A stretch of DNA of 64,000 nt from Beroe forskalii (taxonomy: Eukaryota > Ctenophora > Nuda > Beroida > Beroidae). This document shows, in pieces, positions 40,601-61,600 of this stretch. The position numbers and the translations under genes were made by a program. Location: NCBI GenBank assembly GCA_011033025.1, contig WFMF01000262.1, positions 124,001 to 188,000 on the forward strand, read 5' to 3'. The first letter of the stretch is position 1. Each line of letters begins with the position of its first letter. A model generated the notes under the pieces. It made no database searches. It saw nothing but the letters and a program-made list of their open reading frames with translations, and had not been told where the DNA came from.

Positions 40601-43600
40601 ATCATAAGAATACTAAGGACTGAAATGAGTTCACCTCGCTATCGATACGACTTTAAGAATTGTGGAAGTGAGTGTTATTTTTTATGGCTTCGTACGACTT
40701 GCTATAATATGATAAGTAGAGATATAGTGCACCCCTTTTCTGTCTTTATGATTGTGTGATGATTAGAGATATGGGTGCCCTCTTTACGACTGTGTTCTGT
40801 GTTATGACTTTGTGAGTAAAGATATCAGTGCCCTATCTAATTAAGAGTTTGTTATGAGTACAAACCACATCGTAGACACAACATTCGCACAGTTTACACA
40901 ACATTCGCATTGCTAACAGTAAACAAACAAGGCAGCACTTGGCGTGAAGTCATTAACGCACAACAAAAGCCCCATCGCCAGGCTGTTAATAACATGTGTA
41001 ATTTGTATCATGAGTGTGCGAGTTGAGGAAGGATTCGCAGCGTAATGACCCTCACAACTTCACAAGTGATAAACGAGTTTAAATTACTAATACAAAGTTC
41101 TAAAAAACTTGTTTCATACAGACATCTGGCACCGTACAAAATATACAAATAAATTAGCAAATTAGGTGCTGTCAAATCGTCATGTACAATGTACATATTT
41201 ATTACTTATGTCTTATAAACATTTTAATCAGAAATAGGACGAGTAGAGTGGTTACGAACATCTTCAATTGTAACAATTAAAACGTCGTGTTCTTGTGATA
41301 TTTCAATGAATATATCATTCATCATAGTCATACATTCTGAGAAGTTAATTAGTTTAGAACATACAACTGACACGCAACATATTCATATCACTACGCTCTT
41401 ATCTTAACTAAATCTATAAATAATTGAATTAAATTAATTTATTAGAAAATGCACTGAATATATAATACGACAATCTACTGTCTGCTATTATGTGAATTAC
41501 AATATACATTATACAATATACACAGCAATTGGCAATGTCAAGGCACGAGCACTGTACACAGTACACAGTGACGTAATGACGTATGTGAGCTAGTAGAGAG
41601 AGAGAGAGTTCCCGCTCAAACCCTATGCTTGTCAATACGTCACTGCATACCGACACTCTGTTGCTCAGTGACTCTGTGTCTTGACTTTGTCAATAGCTGG
41701 GGAAAATTCTGCCTTTCAGTTGGTCTTGATATGTTGGTAAATTAAATAAGAATAACGGTACTGATTTCAGTTTATCATTAATTAATGTTCCATCATCGTA
41801 TTCCTGTATATATAAGCTTTCTTTAATTTTGCGTTTAAACATTTTGCTTTCAAACGTTAGTATATCGCAGTTCTCAAACGTAATTTGGCAACTTGGACGC
41901 CGCCAAGTGTTTTCAACTTCGGTCATACCAGTTCCACTTGTCTTCATGTGTTCTTCAAACCGTGTTCGAAGAGCACGACAAGTCTCACCAATATACCGTC
42001 GCCCACAACTACAAGTGATCCTGTATACCAAATCATGTTTGAGGTGTTTTGGCTGTCTGTCTTTAAAACTGAACTTATGACATAATTTAGAATAACTGTT
42101 TAAATAAATTAACTGACATTTCCCTGGTAAATCCTTACTAATACATTGTTTGACTTTCGATGAAATGTCGCCAATGTATGGTAACTTAAAATACACCTTA
42201 AACTTTTCTGGCCCTTCGTGTACCAGCTTTTCTGTCGTGTTAACTTTATTAGTAATTTCCTTGTTGATAATACTATACGTAAAATTTCTACGCAAAATTA
42301 AAGAAAGCTTATATATACAGGAATACGATGATGGAACATTAATTAATGATAAACTGAAATCAGTACCGTTATTCTTATTTAATTTACCAACATATCAAGA
42401 CCAACTGAAAGGCAGAGATTTTCCCAGCTATTGACAAAGTCAAGACACAGAGTCACTGAGCAACAGAGTGTCGGTATGCAGTGACGTATTGACAAGCATA
42501 GGGTTTGAGCGGGAACTCTCTCTCTCTCTACTAGCTCACATACGTCATTACGTCACTGTGTACTGTGTACAGTGCTCGTGCCTTGACATTGCCAATTGCT
42601 GTGTATATTGTATAATGTATATTGTAATTCACATAATAGCAGACAGTAGATTGTCGTATTATATATTCAGTGCATTTTCTAATAAATTAATTTAATTCAA
42701 TTATTTATAGATTTAGTTAAGATAAGAGCGTAGTGATATGAATATGTTGCGTGTCAGTTGTATGTTCTAACCAATTAACTTCTCAGAATGTATGACTATG
42801 ATGAATGATATATTCATTGAAATATCACAAGAACACGACGTTTTAATTGTTACAATTGAAGATGTTCGTAACCACTCTACTCGTCCTATTTCTGATTAAA
42901 TTGACGAAGAAATCCCTATTCTACACACCATCTTATAAACATAAATATGGGCTTTTGTTATCCTGATATCTTATGCCAATCATTTACAGCAGTAATATCT
43001 CGTATTATTAATGATAGTATATCAGTCATACACACTAAAACATTGATGACCACTGATCGACATCAGTGATATCATACGAATAACAAAAGATAATGGAGTA
43101 GTATTCAAGTATTTGCTATTCAAATTCGATGATTTAATGCTGTTCAGCGACTATCAATGACAGATGAGTCCCTACACAACTTACTAGCATAGATATTATA
43201 CGCTTAAAGCATGGCTTGGGATGCGCTAATAAAAATTATTGCACGAGGGAAAGCCGAGTGCAAATAATTTGGGTTATCGTCACGAGGCGAAGCCGAGTGC
43301 GATAACCCCAGTTATTGCACGAGGCGAAGCCGAGTGCAATAACTGTAATTAGCGTATCCCAAGCCATGCTCTTAGTGTATTAGCCAATGTGAGGAAAACG
43401 ATATTAAAACTTATTTGCATGAGCATTTTAATTGCAAAATGCTCTATTATAAATTATTGCACTTTCGATGAAAACCTATTGTTCGTCAATTTGACTTATG
43501 AAAAGGTGAAAAGATGAATCACAGCTGCTATATGATAAAGTTGGTCACGTGACGCGCAGTGACAGCTACAAATCATGTTACCGTGTGTTACAAATAAGTC

Positions 43601-49600: not shown

Positions 49601-52600
49601 TTCTCTCGCCGTTGTGTCTTATCCAAGATTTTGTAGTGTCGATAACTACTTCACAATTTAATACTCTTAAAATATGATTGGTCTACTTAAGCAGTTTATT
49701 AACCTTAACGAAGTTGCCAAGGCCTTCACATACGTTAGCAAGGCCTGCCCATACGTTACCAAGGCCTGCTCTTACGTTACCAAGGCCTGGTCATATGTTA
49801 CCAAGGCCTACTCATACGTTACCAAGGCCTGCTCATACGTTACCAAAGCCTGCTCATACGTTACACGGGCCTGCTCATACGTTACCAAGGCCTGCTCATA
49901 CTTTACCAAGGCCTGCTCATACGTTACCAAGGCCTGCTCATACGTTACCAAGGCCTGCTCATTCGTTACCAAGGCCTGCTTACACGTTACCAAGGCCTGC
50001 TCATACGTTACCAAGGCCTGCTGATACGTTACCATGGCCTGCTGATACGTTACCAAGGCCCGCTCATACGTTACCAAGGCCTGCTCATACATTACCATGG
50101 CCTGCTCATACGTTACCGAGGCCTGCTCATACGTTACCAAGGCCTGCTCATACGTTACCAAGGCCTGGTCATATGTTACCAAGGCCTGCTCATACGTTAC
50201 CAAGGCCTGCTCATACGTTACCAAGGCCTGCTCATACGTTACAAAGGCCTGCTCATACGTTACCAAGGCCTACTCATACGTTACCAAGGCCTGCTCATAC
50301 GTTACCAAGGCCTGCTCATACGTTACCAAGGCCTGGTCATATGTTACCAAGGCCTGCTCATACGTTACCAAGGCCTGCTCATACGTTACCAAGGGCTGCT
50401 CATACGTTACCAAGGCCTACTCATACGTTACCAAGGCCTACTCATACGTTACCAAGGCCTGCTCATACGTTACCAAGGCCTGCTCATACGTTACCAAGGC
50501 CTGCTCATACGTTACCAAGGCCTGCTGATACGTTACCATGGCCTGCTGATACGTTACCAAGGCCCGCTCACGTTACCAAGGCCTGCTCATTACCATGTTA
50601 CCAAGGCCTGCTCATATTACCGAGGCCTGCTACCAAGGCCTGGTCATATGTTACCAAGGCCTGCTCATACGTTACCAAGGCCTGCTCATACGTTACCAAG
50701 GCCTGCTCATACGTTACCAAGGCCTGCTCATACGTTACCAAGGCCTGCTCATACGTTACCAAAGTACCAAGGCCTGCTCATACGTTACCAAGGCCTGCTC
50801 ATACGTTACCAAGGCCTGGTCATATGTTACCAAGGCCTGCTCATACGTTAAGAAGGCCTGCCAAGGCCTGCTCATACGTTACCAAGGCCTACTCATACGT
50901 TACCAAGGCCTGCTCATACGTTACCAAGGCCTGCTCATACGTTACCAAGGCCTGCTCATACGTTACCAAGGCCTGCTCATACGTTACCAAGGCCTGCTCA
51001 TACGTTACCAAGGCCTGGTCATATGTTACCAACGCCTGCTCATACGTTACCAAGGCCTGCTCAGTGCTCATAATATGTTCAACATTTGAGGCCTTCACGA
51101 CATACCTGCGTTCGCTTCGTGCCGTACGTGCGATTTATTAGTAAGCGCCTGGAAATGAAGAAGAAATTGCTTGCAATAATGCAATATCTAGTTTAAAAAG
51201 TAAGATAAGAAGTTAAGGTACTGGAATCGTATTACAATTAAGTTGATACCGTTATACTGCAGTGAAAAACTTAAAACCTCATTCCTTAAATTATTACTGT
51301 GCTGGTAATGAAATCAATTCAGCGGCTATTGATAAGCATGGCAGAAATAATAAGCAGTTTCTTTATTTAGTACTCAAGTAATTTTCTTGCTAAGTCTGGT
51401 CGTCGCTGTTAGGGTCTTGTTTTGTACGTTTCCCATGCTTTTACGCCTTTTAAGCCTGCCACGTAATCAATTTTGTTGGTTACATATCAATTTATATAAT
51501 TCCAAATTTACTTATAGCTTTGATATGTAAGTAATAAGTATACAGTAATATTAAAAGCATTTAGATGAGTCATGACGTAATTATTTCGCATGATTCAATG
51601 CTTGATTCATAAATTCATAATGAGATATTGAGAAACAAATTTTCCGATTTGTCTCGATTTTGTGACAACCTTCAAGACCGCTCCTCTCCTCTAGAAGACT
51701 AGAAATGACAGTTTTATGGGTGTTAGCCCTGCTCCTGTCGACCACCCTGGCAGAGGAGGACTCCTACACCTACAACATCCCCTACGAGTGGACACTGGAG
51801 GACTACCCGAGTGTCGTGTTCCCCAAGTCCGGAACAGAGATCGAGCTGATGGATGTATCCCGGGTCAAAGAACCCAACCAGATCAGACTATCCCTGACAG
51901 GTGACGTCACTGAGATGGCAGTCATGTGGACCACCAACTCAGTGAGCGCGAAGGAGTGCGTCAGGTACGGTCTCTCAGAGGACGAGATGACGTTTACTGC
52001 CGTGTCAACGTACCACCAGTTCGACTGGAATTTCAAGGAGGACCTGCAGGATTTCTACTACACGAGCGGTTTCATACACGAGGCTCTCATGATAAACCTG
52101 GTGCCGGGCAAAAAACATTTCTATCAGGTGAGAAGCAGCCAGCAGGGTTAACCGAGGTCTGAGTCATCATGTTTTATAAGTTTATAATAATTGTGGAAGA
52201 TATCTGGTATATGCCACATTCTGAAACTTTGTTTTTACTTAAATCATTCCGTATTTCAGATCGAAAGCAACGGTGAGAAGTCTGCTATTCTAAGTTTCGT
52301 GGCAGCCCCATCGCCAGGTTCCCCCGCCCCTATATCCCTTCTCCACCTGGCAGACCAGGGCATCTTCGGGACCTCAGTCATGGTAACGAAGAACATGATA
52401 GACCGGGCAGCCGTGAAGGACTTCCACGCAGCACTCCACTGCGGAGACATTTCCTACGCTGACGAGTACAAGAAGTCCCGGCCCCCCGTGTCCGGGGCCT
52501 CGGAGCAGGGCGTCTGGGACACGTGGGGTCAGATGGTGGAGCCCCTGGCTGCCAAAGTACCCTACATGGTTACGCCTGGCAACCACGAGATTGTGGGGAT

Positions 52601-55600
52601 AGAATCGGGATGGGAAAACGGAACTATCTACAACAAGAGGTTCGTCATGCCCGAAAACGAGAGGTACTACTCTTTCGGAGTGGGCATGGTCTACATCATC
52701 GCAGTGAACACGGACGATAACATAGACGCTAAGTCCACCCAGGGGGTCTGGCTAGAGAACACTCTCAAGGACATTGACAGAGAACTGTACCCATGGGTAG
52801 TGGTGTTCCAGCACCGACCTATCTACAACTCGAACACCAACCACGGCAACTGGACGGGCGAAAGCACGTACATTTACGATTCTCATCCCCACGCTGAACT
52901 CCCAGATTTTGAGGGTTGGATGGAGCATTATGAGGACCTGATAGTGAAGTACAAAGTGGACTTTGTGCTGAACGGACACGTCCACAACTACGAAAGAACA
53001 TGGCCTGTTAAGAGAGTTTATAACGCGGATGGTAAGAGGGTTACAGAAGTCTCCCAATCCTACGACAATGTCAAGTACCCGATTCACATCATTTGCGGGC
53101 ACGCAGGGAAGTCCCTCTACACCAAGACTTGGTCTGATTATGAGGATGAGGAGGGCTACAGGCCACCTGTGTACCAGGGTGATTGGGATTTTAGTGCTGC
53201 CAAAACAAACGCCAAGTGGGGACATTGCGAGATGGAGTTTCTGGACAGAGTCACAGCAAAACACTACATGTTTCCAATGGGACAGAGCGAACCTTCAGAT
53301 GAAATCACAATCACTAAAGAGGAGACACTATCTGGGGGTGAGTGCTTTACAGATGTACGTTCTAAAGATATAGGTTACTTACATGCACATCAAAATGTAA
53401 ACCAACTTCAGCAATGCTTGAATTTATTTGCGCATGATACATTTCACACCTTTTGGGTCTCTACTTTTCCAACAGTGACCAAATTTTAATACCTTGGACA
53501 AACACACGCATCAAAATATCGGAGTCATCCAGCCTTTTTAATAACCAGGGTGCACATACGTTGACAAGGAAGGTAGAATCCAAAAAGCAGGGCCAGGAGA
53601 AAAATTCATGGACGACTGCAACACCTGCTTTTGCGGAGAAAACGGTGTTGCTGCTTGCACTGCTATGGCTTGCGAGAAAGATAGAGGTTAGGGGATGTTC
53701 TGATTTCAAGAGACGTTTTGCGATTGCTTCCTTATTCATTTAAGCTTGACCCTACATTATAAATTACTCTTGATTTTATAATGTCTTCCTCAACCAGGGT
53801 GTACATACGTTGACGAAGAAGGACGAAAGCAAATAGCACTGCCGGGCGAATCTTACATGGACGACTGCAACACTTGTGTCTGTGGAGTAAATGGAATTGC
53901 TGGGTGTACTCTGATGTATTGTGGGGATGAAACGATCGAGGAAGAGGGAGGTTTGATGGGGTTGAATTAGATAGAAAATTGCAGACATTAATTTGGGTAT
54001 TTTATTTTATAATTGATCAGAGCTATGAAAGTATGAAAGTATGATGAAGAACTGCAGTTAATGTTTTGGGTTAACTTACGGTGGTGACGCTAAGGCAATT
54101 TTGAGCTTAAGCCTTTGTAATTTTAACTTTGTAATATCTCCTTCGAGAAGGGTGCACATACGTTGACAAGGAAGGTAGAATCCTAAAAGCAGGGCCAGGA
54201 GAACAATTCATGGACGACTGCAACACCTGCTTTTGCGGAGAAAACGGAGTTGCTGCTTGCACTGCTATGGCTTGCGAGAAAGATATTGGAGGTTAGGGGA
54301 TGTTCTGATTTCAAATCTAACTAATAAAAAGAAAAAGGGAAATCTTTAGTCCCACTACCGCAGCACAACTGTGTCGCTACTGTCTCCTACTCAACTAGTC
54401 AGCTGGAAAATCTTAAAACTTATCCTTACTTGAATTTCTTTCTCTACCAGGGTGTACATATGTGGACGAAGAAGGACGAAGGCAAATAGCACTGCCGGGC
54501 GAATCTTACATGGACGACTGCAACACTTGTGTCTGTGGAGGAAATGGAATCGCCGGGTGTACTAAAATGTATTGTGGGGATGAAACGATCGAGGAAGAAG
54601 AAGGTTTGATGGGGTTAATATTATACGGAAAACTAAGGACATCGATCTGGACAATTTATGACTTATGTGTTTATTGCTATGAATAGCGCCAAATGCCAAT
54701 TCTTTTGGGTAAACTCGCGTTCTTGACGATTCAACGCTACCGTGGCGTTACTATTCTTCTACCACATCATTTAGATTTATGAATCGCAAATTACCCATGA
54801 GATGTTTCGTTCTGCGATTGCTTCCTTTTTCATTTCAGGTTTTATAATGTCTTCCTCAACCAGGGTGTGCATACGTTGACAAAGAAGGACGAAAGCAAAT
54901 AGCACTGCCGGGCGAATCTTACATGGACGACTGCAACACTTGTGTCTGTGGAGAAAATGGAATTGCTGGGTGTACTCTGATGTATTGTGGGGATGAAACG
55001 ATCGAGGAAGATGGAGGTTTGATGGGGTTGAATTAGATAGAAAATTGCAGACAAGTTCATAGATATACATTTTTTCCCAAAACCAAAAAGGATTTGGTTG
55101 TGATGGTCCGCGGCGGTTTTAAGGCGTTCTTTACTGTAAAACCCATGATATGAGAAAGAACGCGACGGTTAAAACTGCTGCAACATCTTATAAAACATAC
55201 AGTATTCACGTAGCTTTAATGCATCAAAAAAAGTGCCGTTGCGGCAGTTTTAACCGTCGCGTTCTTTCTCATATCATGGGTTTTACAGTAAAGAACGCCT
55301 TAAAACCGCCGCGGACCATCACAACCAAATCCTTTTTGGTTTTGGGAAAAAATATCACCCTTTTTCTGTGCCGAGATATTGAAATTTGGCGTCAAATCAC
55401 GCGTAAAAATTCGTGTTACCTATTACTGATGACGTCACAATAACGTCATAAAATTAGATAAGCTATCTGAGACCCATTCATTTACACAGTTGGGACTATG
55501 AACGACAACATATCCAAAGATGAAGTTCTGGGTGGTCCCGTTCTCTCTCCACTAGCTTCACAAGTTTTGCCAGTTTTTGGAATTTTTTTCGCGTCAAAGC

Positions 55601-58600
55601 GCTTCGAACAATCGCAAATATCTCAATGATGCCGTAGAGCCCGGAACTTTTTGACCACGTCTTTGGAAAGTACATAAAATTTCCTTTCTGCGCTAACAGG
55701 AGCATTTTTTCTATCTCGAAAGCTTCATACCGAAAATTGCGTTGAAAAACGCCTATTTTTTGGGAAAATCGACATTTGAAATTCTTAGTTTTGTGACGTC
55801 ATTATGACGTCATAATCATGACGTAAAATAGTTTTTAAGGTCACTATCTGCAAGTTCTATCTTTCTTCTTTCCAACGCTGGGTCGATGAGCTCTGTATCT
55901 TTTATGGTCCCCGAGATATCGCCGTTTAAATAGGGTATACTTCTCGCATATGTATATACCTCTATATATCTATATATATGTATGTATATATGTATATATA
56001 TGGTCGTAACCCAATTTAACAAGAACACCCTCGATTTTGGCAATATTCAAGTTATAATAACTCGGCTATTTTTCATCCGATTGACCTGAAATTTTGACAG
56101 TTGCACCTTTGACCTCTAAACATGCGATGTTCAAATTTTAGTGCGATTTCGGCAACGGGAACTTGCTCAAATTTCAACGTGAATTGGCGAATCCATGAAA
56201 ACATATAGTTGGGGGCTGGCAAGCAAAGTTACATAAACTCACTCCCGATGCTCGGAGGCTCGTGTACTGTTAGAATAGCCGTCCAATGCTCACCCTCGGA
56301 CCCTTCGGGTCTCAGGCTCACGCTCGGGCCTTCGGCCCTCGCACTGTTAGGTCCGCCGTCCAATACCCTCGGACCCTTCGGGTCCTCGGGCTCGCAGCTC
56401 GGGCCTTCGGCCCTCGCACTGCTAGGACCGCCGTCCAATGCTCGCCCTCGGGCCCTTCGGGCCCTCGGGCTCGCAAACCGCCGCGGGGGGCTTGCCAGCC
56501 CCCTGATAACAACCTAATGTCATAATACATAATTACCTAATTTCATCGCTCTAAGAATACAATAGCAATATTGTCTTGAACTATAGTTTATTCTAGGGTG
56601 GTATGCCATATAAACCATGATAGTACAACGGAACCATGCCTTGGCACTTGCTATAATGGTGATACCATCTTTTCTACTTCCTTAGCGACTCGGAAGATAA
56701 ATAAACAAATAAGGTTGAAAGTATGTAAACCCCACCAGGCTGCAAGTATTTGAAACCCAACCAGATTAAAAGTATTTGAAACCCACCAGGTTACTAGTTT
56801 GGGAAACCCCACCAGTTTGCTAGTATGTGAAACCCCACCAGGTTACTAGTATGTGAAACCCCACCAGGTTACCAGTATGTGAAACCTCACCAGTTTGCTA
56901 TTAAGTGAAACCCCACCAGGTTACTAGTATGTGAAACCCCACCAGGTTACTAGTATGTGAAACCCCGCCAGTTTGCTAGTATGTGAAACCCCACCAGGTT
57001 ACTAGTAAGTAAAACCCCACCAGGTTACTAGTATGTGAATTGTGAAACCCCACCAGGATACTAGTATGTTAAACCCCACCAGGTTGAAAGTATGTGAAAC
57101 CCCACCAGGTTACTAGTATGTGAAACCCCGGCAGATTGCCAGTATGTGAAACCCCGGCAGGTTGCTAGTATGTGAAACCCCACAAGGTTATTAGTATGTG
57201 AAACCCCACCAGGTTGCCAGTATGTGAAACCCCACCAGGTTGCCAGTATGTGGACGAGGACGGCAATACGAAGGTTGCTACCGTGGGAGAGTCTTTCAAG
57301 GACGGGTGCTCATTGTGCGAGTGTGTAACTGCATGGGGACACAAGACATGTGACGTGAGTGAGTGCCCGGGACTCTGCAACTTCCACAACAGGGACATGG
57401 TGCCGGGGTGGGCTAGGAGAGGAATGGTGACGGCATGGGATGAGAATGAGGGCTGTTTCAAGGAGTGCAAATGCCGGGTGAAGGGACGGGGACGAGACAA
57501 GGGACGAGCTACCCTGGACTGCTCGGTCTCCCCCTGTGAAGACGAAGGAGAGGAAGAGGTTTTGTGCCAATACAATCTCATGGCACTGAAAGTAGGCGAA
57601 ACACTTAACGACGGATGCAACACGTGTGAATGTCAACGAAACGGAAAGAATTCATTATTAGCAATAGCTAAACCAGATATTCTTTGACGTTTATATAACT
57701 CTATAACAATGGTATCATAATTGTATGATCGTTCTTTCACTTGCCCGGAACAAGAATTTAACAAGAATTTTAAGGCGGTTCTTCCAGCAGCAGCTCACAC
57801 GATCATATTTCAAATCTCGTCTTTTCAGGAAAAATGAAGTGTGACTCTCGAGCGTGCTGTCTCTACGTTAAGGACGGAGAGACCACCAGAGCGTGGATAG
57901 GAGAGGACTACTCGGACGGTTGTAACCGGTGCAGGTGTCTGTCCAGTGGCGGGGTGGGAGCCTGCACCAGACGGGCGTGCCCTGGCAAGTGCTTCTACAG
58001 GAACTGGGACCTCGCGGTCGGGTACGCTGACATTGGGGAGAATGTGCAGGTGTTCGATGACGAGGAAACTGAGTACGGCTGTCCGAAGTATTGCAATTGT
58101 ATTAGGGGAGAAAGGGGTGCTAAGATCAACTGCCCCAAGGGATTCCAATATTGCGTTGTAAATTAAGAATTATTTGATGAGATGAAATATTGAAGTTTTT
58201 GTACGTTGTTACGTGGTACACTTAATTAACAAAATTCATGAAAATTAGAATGATAGGATCTCAAAATACTTCAATGAGGGGAGTGCCATTGTCCTTTTTT
58301 TCCGTGGTGCCTCGTGACTGCTTTTGGTAACACGCGGACGAAAAAAGAGACATAGTAAAACTTCAATACTTCAATACTAATAGCAAACTAATTTTACGTT
58401 TTTATGCTTTCAAAGGCGGGCAAAAAAACAAATTGAACCTCTTTTGCTTTATCCACTGCCCGTTTCAACCCGACGAAATGTTCAATGTTCATGCCCGTTT
58501 TCTTAATGCCCCGAAAAAACGGATAGTGACAACCCTCTAACAATGATATATCCCATTGACACAAACACTGCGATGTTGGAAACGTGACCAATGATTCCTA

Positions 58601-61600
58601 TATTATTTCACCTGCGACCTTGAGAGTTGAAGTGTTTGTTTCAGAAAATTTTTACTTTTTATCTGATGTAATATATTCAATTATAAATCGGTGCCTATGT
58701 GATGTACCTAAGCACAATTTTGAAAAAAACCAACGTTTCTTATTTTTGAAATAATATGGGTTTTTTGCTGGTTCGATAAACGATTCTAGAATTTTTAATT
58801 TTCATCAACTCCTACTATTACTAAAGAACTAGGTTTCTAGGGGATCATAAGAAGTCAAGGATCCATTATAATCTCTTGATTCCTAATAAACTGCCCAAGA
58901 AGATGCAGTAGGTGATTTACCCATAATGAGTTGAGGAATTTCCGCGGGGTTGGTGGGTTCTATAGCCACCCTGAGGACCGGTGTCTGCCAGTGGGACATC
59001 CCGTGGAAAGGAGGGCAGTAGAGGGTGTCTGAGATGGTCGCACTCTTCTGTATCAGATCCTGGAGGCCTCCAATACCGCAGATATTTCCTGGAAGAAAGG
59101 TGCTATAGAGCTATAGTAACATGTGATCCACAAACCTGCAGCGATAAAGACATCACAGCGATAAACACCACAAACCTGCAGCAATAAAAAAACCACAAAC
59201 CTGCAGCGATAAAAAACCCACAAACCTGCAGCAATAAAGGAACCACAAACCTGCAGCGATAAAGGAACGACAAACCTGCAGCGATAAAAGAACCACAAAC
59301 CTGCAGCAATAAAAGAACCACAAACCTGCAGCAATAAAGGAACCACAAACCTGCAGCGATAGAAGGAACAACCTCCAGATCCCCACCCATGAGGAGGTAC
59401 ACAGGACCGAGCGCTACTTTGCCCACGTGCACATTGACACCGTGCGTAGTGCGCTCCTGCGTTGCTATGGTGCGCGGGTCATGTCTCGGACCTAACACGA
59501 ACACCTGAGGAAGTTTTTTGAAGAGGGTGAGATGGAGATGGCAGATGCTGGAGTGTTGGTGAACCGTGAAACGAGTAATGGTGAATTATAGGACTCCTAT
59601 AGAACGTTGGTTTTGGGTAAATAATGGAATTTTGGTGAACTAAAACATAACTCGTTGTTCTTTAATATACGTTATCGGACATAATCATCACGGGTTTCAT
59701 GAACTAAAAATTTTACAGAAATTAATATTTACGCTCGATCCTGTCGCTTAAAAATTAAAATTACAACAAAAATTCGAAATTATCTGCTCAATTTTCCCCA
59801 TTTTTTTCCACGATTTGAACACTTGAATTGAAGATTTTTTCAATAATTTTCGTTAATTAATATGATTAATTTCCATATTGCAGGTACTAAGCATGAAAAA
59901 GAAGTATGATTTCCTTAAAGGCTTAAAAATTTGATCATTTTGCATCTCTATCCTAAAAATTTTAAGAGGAAATACCGGACTTAATTTTCACGGACCTGAA
60001 AATCACGGACATTATAGTACTCACGCTGAGTTGCTCAGCGTGAATGTACTTTCCGTGATTATTATGTCTGATAAGTCGATAAGTTATACATTAAATTTCA
60101 ATTAAAACTTGAATACCAATTAGCGACTGTGACTGAGTTAGTACTATTCAAGTAAGTACTAAAGTAATCTGATAATCACTAAAATTAAAAAGCATAGAAT
60201 GCATACGATGCATCTTATCAGGATTTTGATTCTCTTCGTACATATAGTTATTTAAGTATAAAAGCCTTGTAGACTGTAGTAGGTATATTATGTACTCTTA
60301 TACAATGTACATTACAATGTATGCCTTACTAATGGGTTCTAAAATAAACGCGTTTACCGATGCTAAATTTCCTCCTACCAACTACAAATCCGAGGTCTTT
60401 ATTCGTAAATCCGTGGTAGGAGTAAACAAGCAGTGTCCCCAGTTACTCAGCAATCAGTAATCCACCCAGTCCCACCACGACATGTGTACCACTTTAATTC
60501 GGTATCCAATGAGATTCGTTACTTGCGATCGTAAATTGTACAATTACATCAGACGACCTAATACACGTATACCACACAAACCTTTGTACAGCACAAATGC
60601 GCACGAACTTACACAATACACACAAACACACACATACACACATACATACACAAGTACTTACACACGAAACTGCGGCCTAAGCACTCTGAGGGCAGTGCTG
60701 TCATTATTTCAAAACTTATTAAAACATTCGCAAACTTTACAGCGCTCCATCATCGATAACACAGGTATATTATGTTGTGCTCAACTGATATAAGCACATA
60801 AACTGGACGACGCTATCATTTTCCTTCTGGCAAATCAATGACGTTGCATCGCCTAGTTACCACATGTAACCTACACTCCTATAACACAGTCCATTTGTGC
60901 TGCGCTAAAGTACATACAAATTACAGAGACCCGAAGAGACTTTCAGCGCTGAAGTTCAAAGGAAGCGAGAAGTGAGGAAAAGCTTTTTAACATATTACCG
61001 GCCAGGTCCTTTATAAGCAGACTTATAAAAGTCAAACCTGAACAACATAAAACTATTATAGGTATCCAGCCCGTGCAGTATTTAGTTCAGACAAGCGTGT
61101 CAGACACACTTTACAACGCTTTCCATCGTAACATCTAGAGGTATCAGAATAAAGAGGTATGAAGTTAAGAGGTATCTAGAGGCATGAAGAGGTATGAAGC
61201 AATGGACTCAGTGTGCACACCCATCATTCGTGAAGAATGGACTCAGTGTGCACATCCATTATCCATGGAGCAGTGGACTCAGTGTGCACATCCGTTATCC
61301 ATGGAGGCAGTGGACTCAGTGCACATCCGTTATCCATGAGCAGTGGACTCAGTGTGCACATCCGTTATCCATGGAGCAGTGGACTCAGTGTGCACATCCG
61401 TTATCCATGGAGCAGTGGACTCAGTGTACATCCGTTATCCATGGAGCAGTGGACTCAGTGGTATCCGTTATCCATGGAGCAGTGGACTCAGTGTGCATCC
61501 GTTATCCGTGGAGCAGTGGACCCAGTGTGCACATCCATTATCCGTGGAGCAGTGGACTCCGTGTACACATACATTATCCGTGGAGCAGTGGACTCAGTGT

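Follow-up and report, generated by a model that had tools for sequence, protein, structure and literature searches.

A gene model joining a purple acid phosphatase to pacifastin-like modules in the ctenophore Beroe forskalii

Gene model of the locus

In a 64,000-nucleotide stretch of the Beroe forskalii genome (the window; contig WFMF01000262.1, C317:124001-188000 of the 216-Mb assembly used for all genome searches), a gene on the + strand at window positions 51705-58166 is modelled to encode a purple acid phosphatase (PAP) that continues into an array of cysteine-rich modules. Nine exons join into an open frame of 993 amino acids (aa), in which a signal peptide, a PAP N-terminal domain and a metallophosphatase domain are followed by eight six-cysteine modules and two CPGxC modules (Table 1). 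An earlier interpretation made from the letters of the window (the sequence-only reading) had proposed this location and had joined the phosphatase to the modules by frame and intron phases; both were reproduced, as was its count of eight CNTC-type six-cysteine modules and two CPGxC modules. Intron 1 lies in phase 0 and the other seven introns in phase 1, which is also the phase at all module boundaries. Phase-1 introns are the classic arrangement of shuffled extracellular modules.

A single fused gene model for the PAP and the pacifastin-type modules is well supported by the genomic sequence. Exon 2 contains no stop and ends in a strong GTGAGT donor, with the next acceptor 211 bp on. Neither a signal-peptide open reading frame (ORF) nor any of the hexamers AATAAA, ATTAAA, AGTAAA and TATAAA is found in this 211-bp intron; the separate signal peptide for the module exons, which the sequence-only reading had named as grounds for giving up the fusion, does not appear there.

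The phosphatase half and the module tail

A Pfam search of the joined protein, suggested earlier as a check, gave matches to Pur_ac_phosph_N (8.3e-15, 55.6 bits, curated cut-off 30), Metallophos (5.5e-12, 47 bits, curated cut-off 21.5) and, in seven stretches, Pacifastin_I (9.9e-66, 217.6 bits, curated cut-off 27.9). The metallophosphatase is complete, as had been claimed: its seven metal ligands are recognised by motif (D in LADQG, D and Y in GDISYAD, N in GNHE, H in VVFQH and both H in GHVH) and line up with those of the kidney-bean PAP 1kbp in an alignment of exon 2 (E 6e-19). Among the sequences of the Protein Data Bank (PDB), exon 2 matches ten distinct ones at E <= 0.001; nine of these carry the name purple acid phosphatase, and the tenth is a diphosphonucleotide phosphatase. 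Animal ACP7-type PAPs are presumably among the closest known relatives. The N-terminal domain and the metallophosphatase with all seven ligands are shared with two-domain PAPs such as the kidney-bean enzyme (1kbp/4dhl); to our knowledge, these have at most a short tail beyond the catalytic domain, whereas the window protein runs on through ~490 residues of cysteine modules. Hydropathy supports the N-terminal signal peptide, in keeping with the earlier expectation of a secreted protein, and the fusion protein is predicted to be secreted.

Pacifastins, long regarded as arthropod inhibitors, carry a signature of six cysteines, CNxCxC...CTxxxC. All eight modules in the window have the six cysteines and six of them the strict signature; exon 8 scanned alone gives no Pacifastin_I match. 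The P1-P1' pairs of modules 1-8, read from the sequence, are A-M, L-M, A-M, K-M, L-M, V-S, S-R and R-R. The loop between Cys1 and Cys2 is 21 residues long in modules 1-6 and 16 and 20 in the other two, the published range of the ancestral class being 13-20, and none of the five linkers after modules 1-5 contains a dibasic pair. Solved pacifastin inhibitors among the PDB sequences match the last exon and a module exon; the best is LCMI-I (2.2e-06), whose loop CTLMGC resembles the CTLMYC of the window modules.

A structure model of exon 9, built from window sequences only (pLDDT 75.9), begins with a hairpin (strands 9-14/17-22), a feature described for pacifastins with a long loop, and then forms a second beta module. 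Foldseek retrieved pacifastins with a probability of up to 0.98 and E > 0.1, the top row being a fibronectin F1 pair (E 0.037). In a second fold comparison, FnI modules scored a little higher than pacifastins on the first module, and weakly on the second. Because FnI modules rank as high in these fold searches, the assignment to pacifastins rests on sequence, by which the CNTC modules are probably not VWC but pacifastin-like domains whose first loop is long. The earlier label of pacifastin/VWC-type modules is thus kept in its first part, which the Pacifastin_I match bears out, and dropped in its second for the CNTC modules. The CPGxC modules show a weak FnI/VWC-like fold resemblance and, in their window copies, no Pfam match.

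According to the main text of a 2026 survey (PMC13388995), pacifastins also occur in matrix-type multidomain proteins of animals, fungi and bacteria, where those with a long N-loop are often found; the partner domains named are laminin, Lustrin, VWC, FnI, pentraxin, TIL, WAP, thyroglobulin, Kazal and Kunitz, and the P1-P1' pairs for which enrichment in the ancestral class is reported include A-M and K-M. The window modules seem to resemble this class, as described in that text, in the six-cysteine scaffold, in a long loop between Cys1 and Cys2 (a beta-hairpin in the exon 9 model), in the A-M and K-M pairs and in linkers without dibasic pairs, but differ in the 21-residue loop of modules 1-6, in being joined to an enzyme and in their ctenophore host.

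The paralogous phosphatase and the modules elsewhere in the genome

A genome-wide search with exon 2 gave eight matches, one in the window and seven that are pieces of one paralog (~C1112:64805-69263, - strand) of about ten coding blocks and no modules; more distant PAP-like genes may be present in the genome. The paralog shares with exon 2 an identity of 59-79% per exon block and the same ligand motifs, and the phase-0 intron at FYQ/IESNG (a slash marks a splice boundary) is common to both genes, but a hydrophobic C-terminal tail resembling a glycosylphosphatidylinositol (GPI) signal stands in place of the modules. The paralog ends in TIT-R-AGAGRGAELSGAVVVAVSLLLSWRY-stop, ...TITRAGAGRGAELSGAVVVAVSLLLSWRY-stop, and the window protein diverges from it right after TIT(K), ahead of module 1. 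By eye and by hydropathy, the C-terminal segment GAVVVAVSLLLSWRY-stop (hydropathy 2.78) looks like a GPI signal. No tail-module match better than E 3 was found in the ~14 kb past the end of the paralog.

The tail exons, in turn, have relatives in other genes. The last exon was found at 13 places in the genome, four in the window and nine on six other contigs, and exon 8 at 12, two in the window and ten elsewhere, including a further contig (C787, E 6e-4). A family of small proteins with a pacifastin module and a second cysteine module lies on C159, C160, C443, C468, C624 and C847; most members carry Y/F-x-N-x-D-x(2,3)-G-[YW] in the second module. On C624 and C443 these are single-exon small secreted proteins with a signal peptide, and the C159, C847 and C160 genes include a signal-peptide exon (that of C159 was read by eye and was not listed by a strict-threshold hydropathy scan). 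Their last exon is 38-49% identical to that of the window gene, and C159, C847 and C160 have the homologous intron; unlike the window modules, the small proteins have their own signal peptide on the five contigs where the start is seen (not C468). None of the six contigs has a PAP match in the exon 2 search, and within 14 kb around the C159 gene no PAP match is better than E 3.9.

Purifying selection is seen on the PAP and on the modules where the two module types are compared. For the PAP and its paralog, nonsynonymous divergence (dN) is 0.187 and synonymous divergence (dS) 1.60 over 316 codons, taken from seven gap-free blocks in which four block-end codons are counted twice and from which the unaligned or gapped parts of the ~500-codon PAP are excluded. 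Modules 1 and 2 differ by dN 0.22 and dS 1.2 over 45 codons, and the between-type module pairs (six of ten) range from 0.19 to 0.28 in dN and from 1.0 to 1.8 in dS, with one pair saturated. The four within-type pairs have diverged too little for a judgement; dN is near or above dS in two of them (0.028 vs 0.038 for modules 1 and 3; 0.035 vs 0 for modules 2 and 5). Near-copies share the exon together with ~20-40 bp of flank, and therefore the array seems to have grown recently by exon duplication.

Interpretation and competing explanations

On balance, we think it rather probable that the gene encodes a secreted PAP with a pacifastin-like tail, gained by exon shuffling in place of a membrane anchor, which would make the extracellular enzyme either soluble or bound to matrix. 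A phase-1 splice into pacifastin/CPGxC exons would have replaced the GPI-type end at the point homologous to that of the paralog, with tail exons of the type that also encodes small secreted proteins at other loci. The enzyme, predicted from sequence to be secreted and to fold as an active two-metal phosphatase, would then be held or delivered in mucus, gut or matrix by a multi-module tail and not by a lipid anchor; the best argument that the tail decides where the enzyme is located is the probable GPI anchor of the sister gene. In most of the tail modules the reactive loop is still of the inhibitor type, with P1 varying between A, L, K and R, and these modules may protect the enzyme against serine proteases. 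A bolder form, in which phase-1 exon shuffling swapped the lipid anchor for a multi-specific protease-inhibitor array and produced an enzyme-inhibitor hybrid in protease-rich mucus or gut, is offered tentatively, and we regard it as somewhat doubtful.

Several points weigh against a PAP that exchanged its anchor for modules. We infer the direction of the change (from anchor to modules, that is, the ancestral PAP ending), the tethering by the tail, the protease inhibition and, the gene being known from genomic sequence, a single transcript of PAP and modules. Modules 1-5 have GTTAG or GTTTG as donors, which fit the usual consensus poorly; modules 6 (CSLC, CDVSEC) and 7 (CDSRAC) depart from the strict signature; the GPI-anchor signal of the paralog is a probable one, judged by eye and hydropathy only; and the paralog is interrupted by an inserted element in which, by eye, there is no in-phase GT donor. 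To these comes the donor of exon 8 at 57643, overlooked in the sequence-only reading, which is GA (ACG/GAAAGA) and not GT, and in ten U1 small nuclear RNA copies of the genome (L065-L074) neither position 7 nor position 8 carries a change that might favour GA.

We consider it improbable that the locus holds two adjoining genes, a PAP that reads into a retained intron 2 as far as the stop at 53489, and an independent gene for a secreted pacifastin with an unrecognised first exon. A stand-alone pacifastin gene is plausible because at other loci of the genome such modules do form small secreted genes, and the frame of exon 2 stays open for ~50 further codons into the intron. However, the first module exon starts in phase 1 and so requires an upstream exon, the strong GTGAGT donor lies where the paralog continues into its terminal tail, and the 211 bp between the two parts offer neither a signal-peptide ORF nor the four polyadenylation hexamers. 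Much harder to set aside, and only a little short of an even chance, is the idea that the array is merely a structural or adhesive spacer without inhibition. The frequent presence of long-N-loop pacifastins in matrix-type multidomain proteins in the survey text (PMC13388995) would agree with it, as would the loss of the signature Asn or Thr in modules 6 and 7 and the equal rank of FnI in the exon 9 fold search; the full signature in six modules and the six cysteines in all eight speak against it.

The GA donor raises the further possibility that the gene is fused but decaying at its 3' end, the last splice being blocked and the product lacking module 8 and the second CPGxC module. Where the window has ACG/GAAAGA, the homologous donor is GATG/GTGAG in C159, C160 and C847 (in one of the three C847 copies, where found), and the U1 copies offer no compensating change at positions 7 or 8. 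Between 57560 and 57720 there is no GT donor from which the open frame would run on into exon 9; the GC site at 57595 would allow it, at the cost of three cysteines of module 7. We nevertheless think decay unlikely, since exon 9 is intact, with an open frame of 111 codons and 49% identity to C159, a sequencing error or an allele is possible at this donor, and GA-AG introns are reported in the consulted part of PMC7072748 to be spliced in numbers in Eurytemora and Oikopleura. If the last intron stays unspliced, the frame stops at 57687 after 895 aa instead of 993, and the PAP-pacifastin fusion stands either way.

The PAP-pacifastin architecture is likely, though not proven, to be new. The sequence-only reading knew of no described family of this kind, and we too found no description in the literature searched (open papers, with UniProt and other ctenophore genomes outside the scope). 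No paper was found on pacifastins and ctenophores or on purple acid phosphatases and ctenophores. Among the matches listed, papers sharing at least two of pacifastin, acid phosphatase and domain architecture, three of them with both pacifastin and acid phosphatase, showed no fusion in the title or the start of the abstract, and none on metallophosphatase, purple acid phosphatase or phosphoesterase involved pacifastin. By term look-up, the main text of PMC13388995 contains none of phosphatase, Metallophos and ctenophor, and the main text of the ctenophore genome papers PMC11184263 and PMC11797021 contains neither phosphatase nor pacifastin. To speak of an undescribed system, as had been done earlier, is too strong for what appears to be a new combination of two known families. 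Should the tail swap be true, the gene would provide, within the literature searched, the first known case of an enzyme carrying a pacifastin array and also the first record of pacifastins in ctenophores. Ctenophores are perhaps the sister group of other animals, and pacifastins joined to an enzyme in this group would widen the known pacifastin range. The pair of paralogs, one probably membrane-anchored and one module-tailed, would provide a testable case of exon shuffling relocating an extracellular enzyme.

Feature list, repeats and further observations

Table 1. Parts of the PAP-module gene model (window positions; a slash marks the exon-intron boundary).
Feature	Position	Strand	P1-P1'	Donor	Pfam	Remarks
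Exon 1	51705..52127	+		CAG/GTGAGA, phase 0	PF16656, 8.3e-15	Signal peptide (hydropathy) and PAP N-terminal domain
Exon 2	52260..53337	+		GGG/GTGAGT, phase 1	PF00149, 5.5e-12	PAP catalytic domain, seven metal ligands, no stop
Junction intron	53338..53548	+				211 bp; if retained, frame stops at 53489
Pacifastin-like module 1	53549..53686	+	A-M	GAG/GTTAGG	9.6e-14
Pacifastin-like module 2	53798..53950	+	L-M	GAG/GTTTGA	1.3e-13
Pacifastin-like module 3	54151..54291	+	A-M			Near-copy of module 1
Pacifastin-like module 4	54451..54603	+	K-M			Copy of module 2 type
Pacifastin-like module 5	54864..55016	+	L-M		3.1e-14	Near-copy of module 2, 98% over 214 bp
Intron 7	55017..57238	+				Inverted-repeat element ~55056-55346 (by eye); 26-bp minisatellite 56712-57252 reaching into exon 8 start
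Exon 8	57239..57643	+		ACG/GAAAGA		Divergent module 6, first CPGxC module (CPGLC), start of module 7
Exon 9	57829..58166	+	R-R (module 8)		9.4e-07	Module 7 (remainder) and module 8, then second CPGxC module (CPGKC) and TAA stop

Minisatellite units that repeat a 3' splice junction occur before exon 8, in the last intron of the PAP paralog and at window 59167-59365. The first has 20.6 copies of its 26-bp unit, which contains CACCAG/GTTGCCAGTATGTG, the acceptor plus the exon start; the second, at L046 4523-5037, is a 58-bp array of 8.9 copies; and the third consists of 25-bp units with CTGCAG/GTTTGTG beside a minus-strand gene. We take the minus-strand exons at window 58883-59500 to resemble the GTPase EFL1, and a minus-strand ORF at 41690-42394 presumably resembles the GIY-YIG end of a Penelope-like retroelement. 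A 21-bp tandem array of ~64 copies in two stretches (window 49713-51063) ends ~640 bp ahead of the start codon of the PAP-module gene.

The insert in the paralog (L046 6220-6474) has an internal inverted repeat and is flanked by 10-bp direct repeats (CTCAGGGAGA); it either acts as an intron or breaks the gene. Another intron of the paralog (L046 8155-8361), with GGTACGT repeated at its bounds, partly matches 18 other places in the genome and is perhaps an introner-like element. One exon end is present in triplicate as a tandem repeat with a 169-bp period (L046 6861-7238). Two of the ten U1 copies (L066 and L074) read ATACTAACCTG in place of ATACTTACCTG, a variant that by base pairing fits GTTAG donors, for example those of modules 1 and 3, better.

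Mitochondrial DNA of ctenophore type and a berovin-like photoprotein both mark the host as a ctenophore. COX1 lies on a 13,339-base contig and has four in-frame TGA codons, and the first 10,000 bases have a GC content of 17.4%; 17.3% is given for the mitochondrial DNA of Beroe forskalii in the part of PMC6991124 consulted. An aequorin query of the genome gave nine matches, eight of them on C254 and eight without an internal stop. The genes clustered on C254 (L059-L062) are of the berovin-like photoprotein kind, each in a single open frame, and the one frame tested, of 209 codons, matches berovin with 445 bits and mnemiopsin 1 with 424 bits.

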